A DNA stretch of 64,000 nt. Source: Mucilaginibacter glaciei (lineage in GTDB: Bacteria > Bacteroidota > Bacteroidia > Sphingobacteriales > Sphingobacteriaceae). Location: contig NZ_JACWMX010000003.1 in NCBI RefSeq assembly GCF_014773245.1, forward strand, positions 434,001 through 498,000. Reading direction: 5' to 3'. A program made the translations under genes and the position numbers. The notes below the pieces were generated by a model. It saw nothing but the letters and a program-made list of their open reading frames with translations. It did no database searches and had not been told where the DNA came from. Positions 155 through 3,900 of this stretch are shown one piece after another (within the stretch, counting starts at the first letter, position 1; the number at the start of each line of letters is the position of its first letter).

Positions 155-1594
155 TTAAAAAATTTTAAAGAAAGCCAATGCAGAAAATACTATCAAAATT
201 GCCACAAAAGGTACACTAACTGTGCGTTCAAATTGCCAAAAGTTAGTATTGTTTAATGATCTGTAAGAGAACTTAGTTGTATACCAGCTGTAAAAGCCCA
301 GATAGCCAATCAGCATGCCTACAGGTATTGCATAAACGCCAATATATTTGCTTAAAAAGTAAACGGCTACAATGTAAAGAAAACCGGAAACAGTATCAGC
401 AATATGAGTAATAACATGGTTGGTAGTTAAATAAACTTGCAAATGCATAGCACCAAAACGTTGCGCATAAAAAGCCCAGCCTAACAACCCCCAAATATTC
501 ATATCCAAAAACGCGGTTTTTGACCCTATTACTCGTAACAGTGGGCCTATCAACAATGAAGTTGCGATAAAGCCAATAATAAATACCGCATGGCTTAATC
601 GCATGCCTCTTTTGATGGCAGCTTTTAACGATACCATATCGTTATTTACCCGGTATATGGCCAATACCGGTAATTTGCTGTAAAAAGGTGCCATAGATAC
701 CTCTTTAATTTGGGTGATTATACGAATAGCTAATAAGTAAGAGGCTACTGAGGCTGTATTACCAAACTGCGCGTATACAATTGATGTTAAGTTTGTTACC
801 CCTGCCGACATTAAGCCACCAATGCCGCTACGCCAGGCCGGGTGCCATATTTTTTTAAAGATAACTTTATTGAACGGTAGTCTTTTTGAAACCTTTTTAT
901 AAAATCCGTCATTAATTATGGTACATAGGTACCAGTCTCTGATAGATACTATCAAAACCCAAAACTGGCTTACTATGATCAAGTTAAGCAGGGTAGGCGC
1001 GAAATATAAAACAGCCATGCTGCTTAAGATGCTACCTATAGACGTTAAAGTTTCTATCCGGCGCACCAGCGCAATTTGATTTAAACCCTCTAAAAAATTT
1101 AGATAACTTTTTGTGTAAAAATTAAAGCACGATACAATAAGGATAATAACCCAACAGTACCATGCCTGGTTAGCATTACTTGCATCGGCTACTGGTTTTA
1201 TCATTGACAGGGTACCAAAAACGGTCATGGCTACAAACAGTATAGCTGTTAAAACCAAGTAGATATATTTCATTGTCGAAATGATATCGCCCATTAGCGG
1301 AACGTTAGGCTGCGTACCCTGTTCTGAATTTTTATAGGTATTTGTAGTCGAAAAAACGGCAATATCTTTAGCACCGCCAAAAGCGTAAGATATAATGCGG
1401 GTAAAGGTTTGGCGAAAACCAAAGTCGGCCACGGATTGAAGAAAAACAATGGTAGAGAAGAGATAGTACAAAACAATGTCAGCAGCTGAAAATTGCTTTA
1501 GTATCAGCGGTAAAACCCCAAACAATGATAAAGCCTTGGTAGAATAGCTCATCCATGTCATCAGAGTAGGAGAATTCCATGCTTTTTTTAACAT
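155..1594 (-). CDS. Wzx-like polysaccharide flippase
   Basis: A 479-residue integral membrane protein with about 12 to 14 hydrophobic segments spread over its whole length, the layout of MATE/MOP-superfamily O-antigen and capsule flippases. Such proteins move undecaprenyl-linked repeat units from the cytoplasmic to the periplasmic face of the inner membrane. No soluble domain is visible. It lies 64 bases downstream of the neuB-like gene on the same strand, so it probably flips the repeat unit that carries the sugar made by this operon. A second flippase lies at 11108-12469, so the locus may export two glycans or one may be redundant. Family assignment rests on topology and context more than on motifs. 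Confidence 0.8.
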   Translation of the reverse strand: MLKKAWNSPTLMTWMSYSTKALSLFGVLPLILKQFSAADIVLYYLFSTIVFLQSVADFGFRQTFTRIISYAFGGAKDIAVFSTTNTYKNSEQGTQPNVPLMGDIISTMKYIYLVLTAILFVAMTVFGTLSMIKPVADASNANQAWYCWVIILIVSCFNFYTKSYLNFLEGLNQIALVRRIETLTSIGSILSSMAVLYFAPTLLNLIIVSQFWVLIVSIRDWYLCTIINDGFYKKVSKRLPFNKVIFKKIWHPAWRSGIGGLMSAGVTNLTSIVYAQFGNTASVASYLLAIRIITQIKEVSMAPFYSKLPVLAIYRVNNDMVSLKAAIKRGMRLSHAVFIIGFIATSLLIGPLLRVIGSKTAFLDMNIWGLLGWAFYAQRFGAMHLQVYLTTNHVITHIADTVSGFLYIVAVYFLSKYIGVYAIPVGMLIGYLGFYSWYTTKFSYRSLNNTNFWQFERTVSVPFVAILIVFSALAFFKIF

Positions 1595-1658: not shown

Positions 1659-3242
1659 TTAATTGCTTTTTGCGTTAGGCACATATTTATGGTGCTCTTG
1701 CAGGTGTATCACTTTGTTTTCGCTTCCGCACATTAATTCGGCTTTGCGTACGTCATGCACAAAATCTTTAAACCTATTGTTGTACAAATCAATGGCAACG
1801 CCATCAAAATGTATCCAATCCAAATCGCCTAACTTCACGTGTTTTTCTATCATTTTTGCGCCCGAAGCAACCGCGAGCATACAGCCCAGGCTGCCAACAT
1901 CGTGGCTGGAGTAGCCCGGCAGCATGTTAGCATATTGTTTAGCCCGTAATTGCCCGTAATGCCTTACTACAGCTATCTGGCAAGCCTCTGGTGGTGTGGG
2001 GTAAGAGGATGTGCATTGTAATAAAAAAAGTGTACGGTTGCCCGCAAAGCTGTTCAGTACAAAGTCTTCATAGCTTGAATCTGTAAAACCTGTAGATATG
2101 ACCAGATCGCCTTTAAAATCATTACCCACATTGAGCAGGTAGTTTTTGTGGTTTGAAATGGTTGACGGGAGCTTAATTAAGGGTGTATCAAACTGGCGTA
2201 AAAAATTATAAGAATTCCAGTCTAAAGCCGATGCAAACCATGGGATCTCTTTTTTCCGGCATTCTGCGTCAATCAACGCAAACATCTGTTCATTTAGTTC
2301 GACACCCCGGCGATAGTCGCCAAGTTGCTTTCCGAACGGTGATTTGTATGGTTTTGATAACTCATCGTCTGTATAAAAGGCATCTACGTCCCTTTTTTGA
2401 AATTTTACGATATCGGCTCCAGCTTCCTTAGCCAGCTCAATCATTTTTACGATTCTTTTAGGGTCGCTGATATGGTTATTTGTAAACTCTGCAACAATAA
2501 TTACATGGTTAGTTGTCATAGCCCGGTGTAACAAGGCCGCATACATTTCAGAGTTGGTAACCCCCTTTTTGTCTGTAAATTTTGATTGAAGTTGAGTTAC
2601 CAAATTATTAAACCCTACTGCAGATAACGCGCTGTAAGATTTTTCGCCAACGTGCGATAATTTTATATTTGGATAAACCTCTGTAAAGCTTTCTAATATT
2701 GATGTGAAAAAAGACTCCTGAGTTTTAAGTATGACATTCTTATACTCCAGATCATACATCTGGTTATCATCGGGGTTTACTTGGGCCGAGTGGAAATCAA
2801 AGCCAATAAAATAAACCTCAACATTACCTGCTACAGCTTGCTGATGTAAAATGGAAAACTTTATAGCTGATAAAATGATGAAATCTTCGAGAAAAAATTC
2901 AGGGTCCTGGAAATACTCATATGTATATTCAAAACTATCCTGGCCCGAAACAAGATGCTTTACTTCAATATGTTGGTTATCGGGTATCTTGAAAAAGGAT
3001 GGTGCCAAATATTTAGCGGCCTTAAATCCGTTTTCGCGAATCTGATCAAACAGCTCGGTACGGTAAAACATGGCGATATCGCCAGGGATGATTTTCTCCG
3101 AGTCGTTCAGGTTAATGATAAAAAAGTCATCAAGTTGTTTTAAATTAATGTCTTTTATAGAATCACCTTTTCCAATAACGGCAATTTTATTTTTGCCTGA
3201 CTTTAAAGATATATTTTTGATCTGGTCTAAGTAATTCTCCAT
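1659..3242 (-). CDS. Fusion: GT42/MptE-like Rossmann domain + NeuB-type nonulosonic acid synthase lacking SAF domain
   Basis: 527 residues in two parts. Residues 246-515 are a NeuB-type synthase, which condenses phosphoenolpyruvate with a hexosamine or hexose to give a nine-carbon nonulosonic acid. Seen: VAEFTNNH (E252, H257), KFQKR (280-284), QCTSSYPTPPE, GYSSHD (H447) and IEKH (E466-H468). The C-terminal SAF (antifreeze-like) domain normal in NeuB/SpsE is absent; the protein ends about 45 residues after the last barrel helix. Residues 1-235 form a different domain with GKGDS (24-28) and VEVYFIGFDFHS near 141-152, a pattern like GT42 sialyltransferases (CST-I) or MptE-like/DUF115 Rossmann domains. 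The only sensible start overlaps the upstream phosphatase gene by 56 bases, which suggests translational coupling. The synthase call is firm; the N-terminal call is inference from pattern. Confidence 0.8.
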   Translation of the reverse strand: MENYLDQIKNISLKSGKNKIAVIGKGDSIKDINLKQLDDFFIINLNDSEKIIPGDIAMFYRTELFDQIRENGFKAAKYLAPSFFKIPDNQHIEVKHLVSGQDSFEYTYEYFQDPEFFLEDFIILSAIKFSILHQQAVAGNVEVYFIGFDFHSAQVNPDDNQMYDLEYKNVILKTQESFFTSILESFTEVYPNIKLSHVGEKSYSALSAVGFNNLVTQLQSKFTDKKGVTNSEMYAALLHRAMTTNHVIIVAEFTNNHISDPKRIVKMIELAKEAGADIVKFQKRDVDAFYTDDELSKPYKSPFGKQLGDYRRGVELNEQMFALIDAECRKKEIPWFASALDWNSYNFLRQFDTPLIKLPSTISNHKNYLLNVGNDFKGDLVISTGFTDSSYEDFVLNSFAGNRTLFLLQCTSSYPTPPEACQIAVVRHYGQLRAKQYANMLPGYSSHDVGSLGCMLAVASGAKMIEKHVKLGDLDWIHFDGVAIDLYNNRFKDFVHDVRKAELMCGSENKVIHLQEHHKYVPNAKSN

Positions 3243-3900
3243 GATAAACTTGGTTATTTACAGTTACTGATAAGCCATTTTCGAGCGCCAAATTCAAGCC
3301 AGGTATAATATCCCAAACTTTTGCGCCTTTTGGGTTCTCAAAAGAGTAATATGCACCAATTACAACGTTGTACATATTGTAAACACAGCACCCGATGATT
3401 CGGTATTCAAAGCCCGGCTGCAATTTTAAGATCTCTTCTTTTGTTAAGCTTGATGATATACCTGCAATACGGGAATTGAATCGCTTAGGTTTATCGCCGG
3501 TTATCAGGTACGAGTCGAGTTCGGGCATCGCCAGCATAGATTGCTTGTGAACGCCTCCCTGGTAAACACATACGGCAACACCCCATTCCTTTAAACCAGA
3601 AACAAAGTTCTCGGTGCCATCAATAGGGTCGAGGATTATAATGTTTTCCTGTTCAAAATTATGGTTGTTCTGTTCTGGCGACTCTTCCGATATCAGGTAA
3701 AAGTTTGGCAGGTTATTGGTAATATATTCTTTTACTAAAGTTTCGCATAACAGGTCGCCTTTAGATACGTAACTTCCGTCTTCCTTTGAAACTTTATCTT
3801 GCCTCAAATCTATAATAGACTGTAAATTGGCTATTATTAACTCTTTGATATCTTCACAAATTCTCATAGGTTCAATCTGGTAGGATAAGTTGTTTATCAA
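3187..3900 (-). CDS. Inositol-monophosphatase-family (CysQ/SuhB-like) sugar phosphatase
   Basis: 237 residues with the metal-site signatures of the Li-sensitive phosphatase family: ISEES (E72, E73), DPIDGTENF (D91, D94) and WDIIPG (W196, D197). These enzymes remove phosphate from inositol phosphates, PAP or sugar phosphates using Mg2+. Set between neuA- and neuB-like genes, its natural substrate may be a phosphorylated nonulosonic acid or its precursor; KDN and sialic acid routes that go through a 9-phosphate need such a step, usually done by a HAD enzyme. The first Met lies inside the neuA-like gene; Met12 at 3867 would start four bases after the neuA stop and removes little. The 3' end overlaps the synthase gene by 56 bases. 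Confidence 0.85.
   Translation of the reverse strand: MINNLSYQIEPMRICEDIKELIIANLQSIIDLRQDKVSKEDGSYVSKGDLLCETLVKEYITNNLPNFYLISEESPEQNNHNFEQENIIILDPIDGTENFVSGLKEWGVAVCVYQGGVHKQSMLAMPELDSYLITGDKPKRFNSRIAGISSSLTKEEILKLQPGFEYRIIGCCVYNMYNVVIGAYYSFENPKGAKVWDIIPGLNLALENGLSVTVNNQVYHGELLRPDQKYIFKVRQK

Follow-up and report, generated by a model that had tools for sequence, protein, structure and literature searches.

The route to Kdn in Bacteroides thetaiotaomicron and Prymnesium parvum comprises a Kdn-9-phosphate synthase, a Kdn-9-phosphate phosphatase and a CMP-Kdn synthetase (PMC6200933). A gene of Mucilaginibacter glaciei was examined in a window of 64,000 nucleotides (the whole stretch of DNA that was analysed; assembly GCF_014773245.1, contig NZ_JACWMX010000003.1, positions 434,001 to 498,000, forward strand), where it occupies positions 1659..3242 of the minus strand as a single open reading frame (ORF) with an ATG start. 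Its 527-residue product joins an N-terminal domain with a predicted MptE/GT42 fold to a NeuB-type barrel that has no SAF domain. As in the Kdn route, condensation of phosphoenolpyruvate (PEP) with a sugar phosphate, dephosphorylation and activation with cytidine monophosphate (CMP) would follow one another, as we infer from the genes, and the SAF-less synthase is accompanied by a phosphatase-family gene (26 of 26 loci with the N-terminal domain) and a cytidylyltransferase-like gene (24 of 26). The phosphatase is inositol-monophosphatase-like (IMPase-like, PF00459) here, whereas that of the known Bacteroides route is HAD-type, and only the synthase described here has the extra N-terminal domain and a long branch of its own.

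Other described systems resemble parts of the protein. The barrel fold and a conserved histidine pair are shared with NeuB and PseI (PF03102 with SAF), from which the protein differs by its lack of SAF and by scores far below both equivalog cut-offs. The N-terminal domain is comparable in fold to the GT42 sialyltransferases Cst-I and Cst-II (PF06002) and in both fold and profile to MptE-like (Maf_flag10, PF01973) proteins. DAHP synthase-chorismate mutase fusions (3nvt, 5j6f) have a barrel of the same superfamily, and their fused partner is an enzyme of the same pathway; the pathway and the partner domain are different here. N-terminal regulatory domains or fused chorismate mutase give DAHP synthases allosteric control by product, a feature that is only proposed for the present protein. 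The parts are thus of known kinds, and no paper on a fusion of NeuB with an MptE/GT42-fold domain was found in literature searches, which agrees with an earlier reading of the DNA made from its letters alone (the sequence-only reading), in which an undescribed architecture was suspected.

The fused gene and its distribution

PF03102 (NeuB) is the sole Pfam family in the window protein (residues 267-509, E 8.6e-44, 150.2 bits against a cut-off of 22.1), and it is matched by all 22 proteins of a full-length alignment of fusions that excludes three genes of a plasmid collection. The barrel and C-terminal tail span residues 247-527 (1662..2504, minus strand) by Pfam, alignment and structural match; the sequence-only reading had placed the barrel at residues 246-515, in agreement with a structural match over residues 233-527 of the model. 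That reading had also held that a C-terminal SAF domain is missing, and this was confirmed: no SAF family is matched at E <= 1 by the window protein, and none by the 22 aligned fusions, with a NeuB (L091) serving as positive control at 26.1 bits against a cut-off of 21 in the same library. The first 240 residues have no Pfam match at E <= 1.

The N-terminal domain (residues 1-239; 2526..3242), delimited by structure model, fold matches and profile comparison, carries GKGDS (residues 24-28, 3159..3173; GKG invariant) in the loop after the first strand, NDSE (residues 46-49, 3096..3107; invariant) in the loop after the second strand and HVG (residues 197-199, 2646..2654; H and G invariant) at the end of the last strand, as placed by alignment and model secondary structure. 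GFDF (residues 147-150, 2793..2804; invariant by alignment), of which G.D is common to MptE-like proteins, lies within the IGFDFH motif that had been noticed, together with GKGDS, in the sequence-only reading. GYSSHD (residues 443-448, 1899..1916) and EKHV (residues 466-469, 1836..1847) were recognised in the barrel by alignment, and EHHKY (residues 516-520, 1683..1697) in the C-terminal tail by motif count, all on the minus strand. NDSE, GFDF, GKG.[ST], SSHD, EKHV and EHHKY are each present in 25 of 25 complete fusions; H[VI]G was counted in 24, the motif of the remaining row lying beyond the searched region owing to a long extension at its N-terminus, and the histidine of HVG is kept in all 22 rows of the fusion alignment.

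The N-terminal domain was found at 26 loci (the window, three plasmid-collection records and 22 genome contigs) that belong to five phyla by tree labels. Each of the 25 complete genes has this fused architecture, and the 26th (L053) is interrupted by a contig end. The fusion is confirmed as real beyond chance, being intact in 25 loci of five phyla with its motifs in 25 of 25; a single-species oddity or an annotation error is ruled out by the 26 loci and by the single clade that the fusions in the tree form. In this tree of 23 fusions and 11 other NeuBs, the fusion barrels make up one side of a branch with 100/100 support (the tree and the pair statistics of the cassette use 23 of the 25 complete fusions, L049 and L057 being omitted with their duplicates L032 and L033). 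A search of 395 Bacteroidia genomes with a barrel alignment holding nine of the 25 fusions, which also served for comparison of histidines with solved structures, placed three fusions below 1e-139 and all other matches at 2e-49 or above. The N-terminal domain diverges faster than the barrel, with mean pair identities of 33% and 57% respectively (231 pairs, 22 rows).

The fused protein has only itself as a match in its own genome. Matches are present in 121 of 199 related genomes (its own included), of which the best others cover the barrel only, at about 33% identity, and the N-terminal domain alone matches three of the 395 Bacteroidia genomes, again including its own. The window protein is closest to the products of two Dyadobacter genes, with identities of 66% and 63%. 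A scan of GTDB contigs with an alignment of the N-terminal domain identified 22 loci, two of them identical to hits of the Bacteroidia class scan. Of 96 matching plasmid records, three (two from E. coli, one from Enterobacter) match over 80% or more of the protein, with 43-44% identity. The fusion-bearing loci include capsule clusters of the group 3 type in E. coli and Enterobacter, and in E. coli the gene is carried by plasmids with capsule genes. Among 5426 complete E. coli genomes, four contain a gene closely related to that of the plasmids. One of the records (L035, NZ_CP141089.1), 4.9 Mb of E. coli DNA labelled 'plasmid unnamed1', is likely a mislabelled chromosome.

No unfused N-terminal domain was found in the 395 Bacteroidia genomes, in eight fusion-bearing genomes (one copy each), in the ORFs of the fusion loci or in the GTDB scan, which relied on two short motifs of the domain, so that a diverged stand-alone form could escape it. 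A phage or viral origin was considered and rejected: a scan of viral contigs gave no relative, and three phage-collection records match the barrel part only. A viral structure library contains proteins of similar fold (uncharacterised, DUF115 and MptE-like) that are about 10-14% identical to the domain, which shows no more than that the fold is present in viruses.

The synthase barrel and its SAF-less relatives

The best structural match of the full-length model is a Leptospira protein titled sialic acid synthetase (6ncs; Z 32.2, 274 residues aligned, root-mean-square deviation (rmsd) 2.4), followed by NeuB and PseI at Z about 31 and then by DAHP and KDO8P synthases. His447 of GYSSHD and His468 of EKHV, a pair kept in 25 of 25 fusions, align with histidines of the solved NeuB structures 2wqp, 8h2c and 1vli, where their counterparts are presumably metal ligands. 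Residue conservation and family membership make it very probable that the barrel is a PEP-dependent synthase. Its scores for the NCBIfam models of N-acetylneuraminate synthase (TIGR03569, 128.7 bits against a cut-off of 399.65) and pseudaminic acid synthase (TIGR03586, 102.5 bits against 340.25) are below the cut-offs.

The nearest NeuB kin found are SAF-less NeuBs of Bacteroidia. Of 70 NeuB places listed in the 395 Bacteroidia genomes, 28 have frames of less than 320 residues, too short for a barrel plus SAF, and Pfam identified NeuB without SAF at L002, L009 and L089 and in a HAD fusion (L003). A HAD-family gene adjoins the SAF-less NeuB in two of the four distinct loci inspected (L009 and L088), and no such gene lies within the short flanks available for the other two (L002, which is the same as L087, and L089). 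We infer that these SAF-less NeuBs are Kdn-9-phosphate synthases. Loss of SAF is common to the fusions and their nearest kin, and coupling to a phosphatase recurs with a different phosphatase.

In the sequence-only reading it was supposed that the N-terminal domain may replace SAF. Such a domain would complete the synthase active site, or would be an assembly module only, and the absence of SAF from 22 of 22 aligned fusions, together with the presence of the domain in all 25 complete genes, would suit either role. However, SAF-less NeuBs without any such domain are among the nearest kin (by Pfam at L002, L009 and L089, by length at the 28 listed places), so the domain need not replace SAF; the best structural match, 6ncs, is itself a chain of only 285 residues, though possibly a trimmed construct; and the full-length single-chain model, with a predicted template modelling score (pTM) of 0.58 against 0.82 for the N-terminal domain alone, suggests no firm docking of the domains. 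Replacement of SAF was rejected as the main idea and is judged very unlikely.

Other NeuB fusions were noted. A gene of about 480 codons that fuses a HAD-family domain (KdsC-like by eye) to a SAF-less NeuB is widespread in genomes of the same genus (L003-L030); the arrangement is seen in seven of seven proteins shown, with both domains identified by Pfam in one (L003). In L003 and L024 this gene lies between genes that by eye are SDR-like and fatty-acid-hydroxylase-like, and it possibly belongs to a nonulosonate-lipid pathway. A search of the window genome with the fused protein gave no match to the HAD-NeuB gene. In two further fusions a PF02348 cytidylyltransferase precedes a SAF-containing NeuB (L091:670-2415) or follows a NeuB (L093:551-2311). 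It seems that NeuB fuses readily with partners from its pathway.

Fold and conserved residues of the N-terminal domain

The N-terminal domain belongs, in diverged form, to the fold group that comprises MptE, Maf and the sialyltransferases of GT42 and GT29, as judged from modelled structure and sequence profiles; the assignment rests on VIA realignment and profile comparison. AlphaFold modelled the domain from 23 aligned sequences with a predicted local distance difference test (pLDDT) score of 86.3 and a pTM of 0.82. VIA realignment of Foldseek candidates ranked Maf at the top (Z 10.5, 188 residues aligned, rmsd 4.4), followed by thiamine pyrophosphokinase (Z 9.3), MptE (9.2), Cst-II (8.8, 151 residues aligned, rmsd 4.2), SteA (8.7) and human ST8SiaIII (7.8), with unrelated SDRs from Z 4.8 downward. 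In hhalign comparisons the domain gave 97.6% (global) and 96.2% (local, 63 columns) against 14 MptE-like Bacteroidia proteins, 12 of which exceed the Pfam cut-off, 51.6% against two MptE-like neighbours, 39% against three neighbours of the GT29 cluster, 22-42% against three GT42 rows and at most 0.4% against three unrelated control families (local mode only).

The GT42/MptE-like assignment made in the sequence-only reading is in this way borne out at the level of the fold group. The families named in it fared differently: PF06002 (GT42) is matched by none of the 23 members and, when used as query against 149 Bacteroidia genomes, yielded a single match, which lies under the threshold, and PF01973 (MptE-like) has weak matches in nine of the 23 members at E <= 5 (best 8.9e-4; the five scores shown are 12.0-14.7 bits, below the gathering threshold of 34.6), the window protein not being among them. 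Several results weigh against the assignment. A Foldseek search of the domain against the Protein Data Bank (PDB) returned nothing at E <= 0.001, with epimerase and SDR folds ranked first; a hidden Markov model (HMM) of the 14 MptE-like proteins detects only half of the 26 fusion genes (13, at E <= 0.01), the one in the window not being among them; and Pfam finds no kin for the N-terminal domain of the window protein.

Seventeen residues are invariant among 23 rows (G24 K25 G26, N46 D47 S48 E49, G54, Y78, A126, G147 F148 D149 F150, H197, G199 and S204), and 14 of them lie at C-terminal strand ends or strand-end loops according to the secondary structure of the model. In this fold the C-terminal strand ends are the ligand-binding side. 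Residue equivalences with MptE and Cst-II were drawn by motif alignment. The 14 stand-alone MptE-like relatives keep the asparagine of GNGPS (14 of 14), an asparagine after the second strand (14 of 14), G.D (14 of 14), the histidine of G.DH (12 of 14) and that of 'HF' (13 of 14). The fusions share GxGxS, the second asparagine and GxD, but have lysine in place of the GNGPS asparagine, GFDF in place of G.DH, and no conserved 'HF' histidine (histidine in nine of 23 members, tyrosine in the window protein), and their NDSE and HVG motifs are new. The seven columns that match the catalytic histidine of Cst-II (which we take to be H188) contain histidine in nine of 23 members and none in the window protein, the equivalence being one of motif alignment. 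Since motif residues of the stand-alone relatives are altered and the domain has invariants of its own, it seems to keep a ligand site with different chemistry.

Another nucleotide-dependent enzyme, such as a kinase that supplies the sugar phosphate, would also be compatible with a site of this kind. The Z scores of thiamine pyrophosphokinase and MptE, which share the fold, tie with those of the sialyltransferases; K25, D47, E49, D149 and H197 are invariant; and a phosphatase step implies a phosphorylated substrate. Thiamine pyrophosphokinase and MptE carry an acidic motif after the third strand. In the fusions, however, this motif has no conserved counterpart, the stretch varying by eye among YRTEL, HRAW, SANW and HHGW types, which weakens a pyrophosphokinase in particular and leaves an enzyme of the wider class improbable.

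The probable cassette, its proposed pathway and the possible role of the N-terminal domain

Directly upstream of the fusion, in 26 of 26 loci, is an IMPase-like gene, which in the window occupies 3187..3900 (minus strand), has 56 bp in common with the fused gene and scores 60.9 bits for PF00459 against a cut-off of 27; Pfam and locus comparison make it a candidate nonulosonate-phosphate phosphatase. The overlap is at least 4 bp in 22 loci (start codons picked mechanically), and all 26 IMPase-like genes contain the motif DP[ILV]DG[TS].NF. A DPIDGT-type motif is the signature of the IMPase family. A CMP-sugar (acylneuraminate-type) cytidylyltransferase gene (PF02348; 3872..4549, minus strand; identified by Pfam and NCBIfam) lies further upstream in the window, and a similar gene lies near the fusion, upstream or downstream, in 24 of 26 loci, the misses being L053 (contig end) and L052. 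Mean pair identity is 30% for the cytidylyltransferases (210 pairs), in comparison with 52% for the IMPase-like proteins and 58% for the barrels (253 pairs), a divergence as if the former gene had been recruited several times. Synthase, phosphatase and CMP-activating genes probably constitute a cassette; apart from these three genes, every ORF cluster is limited to at most 12 of the 26 loci.

The protein would act as the synthase at the start of a pathway to a nonulosonic acid, a sialic-acid-like sugar. By its family and conserved residues, the barrel would join PEP to an aldose phosphate, of which mannose-6-phosphate is the simplest candidate, giving a nonulosonate with a phosphate at position 9, for instance Kdn-9-phosphate; the IMPase-like product would then remove the phosphate, a step proposed because the gene pairing is invariable; the neighbouring cytidylyltransferase, judged by its family, would make the CMP-sugar; and a transferase would place the sugar into a surface polysaccharide. 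That the substrate of the synthase is phosphorylated is reasonably likely. A cassette for a ulosonic acid of another size (such as one built on a pentose or heptose phosphate), whatever the role of the N-terminal domain, would suit the low equivalog scores of the barrel and the lack of further widely shared genes, but the GT29 and PF07388 neighbours and the PF02348 cytidylyltransferase fit C9 sugars, and such a product has little probability.

The N-terminal domain, in which a nucleotide-site-like framework (GxGxS, N46 and GxD) is kept and the histidine conserved in the stand-alone relatives is lost, would bind CMP or the CMP-sugar of the pathway and so control the fused synthase by end-product feedback. 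Binding of a nucleotide or CMP-sugar is somewhat favoured; a regulatory rather than catalytic role is put forward tentatively. The whole explanation (first-step synthase, phosphatase and CMP activation, with the N-terminal domain as a regulator that binds CMP or CMP-sugar) is our preferred one, with a likelihood somewhat short of even. Its fullest form, in which a sialyltransferase-fold domain has lost its transfer chemistry and reads the CMP-nonulosonate to throttle the first step, and the phosphatase-coupled cassette has spread between phyla in polysaccharide and capsule clusters, is a possibility held more loosely still.

The sequence-only reading had joined the first step to a later one, either transfer or sensing. 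Sensing is the part now favoured, because the 'HF' histidine is not conserved, no unfused copy of the domain was found in the scans made, and separate sialyltransferase-family genes over the cut-off are present in six other loci: L045, L047 and L048 (PF07388), L051 and L058 (GT29) and L050 (PF01973), as found among selected neighbours scanned. Matches below the cut-off were obtained in L041 and L043, and L057 has such a gene by GT29 ORF cluster only, with no Pfam match. Were the domain instead an active CMP-nonulosonate glycosyltransferase of Maf/GT42 type, the first and last steps would reside in one polypeptide. This bifunctional enzyme would draw support from a fold group that is that of CMP-sialic-acid transferases, from homology to stand-alone MptE-like genes, from 17 invariant residues of which 14 are on strand-end loops while the rest diverges fast, and from PF01973 matches within 5 kb of NeuB in three of 16 PF01973-matching genomes (G139 over the cut-off, G148 and G162 below it); nevertheless the fusions have not retained three conserved residues of the stand-alone proteins, the GNGPS asparagine (lysine here) and the G.DH and 'HF' histidines, and a transferase is considered unlikely, though less so than the other alternatives. 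The three matches (G139:C25, G148:C29 and G162:C18), stand-alone and within about 5 kb of NeuB in Bacteroidia, are a lead for unassigned nonulosonate transferases in their own right.

Several points weigh against the sensor. The 17.8 kb past the window edge contain 17 ORFs; Pfam scans of 14 of these and of the flippase beside the fusion found no sialyltransferase-family gene, nor did four home-made models applied to all 17, one of which (for GT29-like proteins) included a methyltransferase row by mistake, so that its extra hits are artefacts and were disregarded. With no separate transferase recognised in the scanned ORFs of its cluster, the window's N-terminal domain could still be a transferase. 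A second NeuB is also present in L041, L045 and L047, of canonical type in the latter two, whose PF07388 genes may serve the pathway of that NeuB, which weakens the argument there. The faster divergence of the domain also fits a transferase with changing acceptors, and since other NeuB fusions join enzymes (HAD in L003, PF02348 in L091 and L093), the prior for an enzyme is raised. Mannose-6-phosphate was proposed because other shared genes are absent, and this is its sole basis.

The window locus is a surface-polysaccharide cluster. Adjoining the fusion is a putative polysaccharide flippase gene (155..1594, minus strand; by eye, with no family over cut-off), a member of an ORF cluster (c5) present in seven of 26 loci. 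Upstream of the cytidylyltransferase are GNVR/AAA_31 and Poly_export/SLBB genes, which are Wzc- and Wza-like, and past the left edge of the window, beside the flippase, lie a gene for a 427-residue protein and then GT2, Glycos_transf_1, WecG-type, initiating-transferase, hexapeptide and Wzy_C-like genes, the Wzy_C-like match being below its cut-off. The 427-residue protein (L090:14871-16151, minus strand) has no clear family and is a candidate transferase of the cluster; it is not BLAST-similar to the set (c38) with which it was grouped, and that set scored 0.1 against PF07388 proteins in profile comparison. Another ORF cluster (c8) is present in five loci, one examined member being a hexapeptide transferase. 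Proteins of about 480-610 residues in four fusion loci (c13; L034:8810-10630, L036, L054 and L056) are candidates for an unknown glycosyltransferase: no Pfam match was found in two members and no NCBIfam or PDB match in one, and the gene immediately precedes that for the CMP-transferase in L034, L036 and L054 and lies farther upstream in L056.

The fusion defines a clade of nonulosonate synthases that can be recognised by sequence. Automatic annotation labels its members 'N-acetylneuraminate synthase family protein' beside 'inositol monophosphatase family protein', a pairing by which capsule sugars may be wrongly predicted. For new clusters found in a survey of group 3 capsules of E. coli, the predicted precursors include CMP-sialic acid and an inositol (PMC10433991); if those clusters correspond to loci studied here, this prediction may be a misreading of the cassette. 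If the N-terminal domain does sense a CMP-sugar, it would constitute a fused feedback domain for nonulosonate synthesis, as in DAHP synthases, and if it transfers the sugar, the protein would be an enzyme of the first and last steps.

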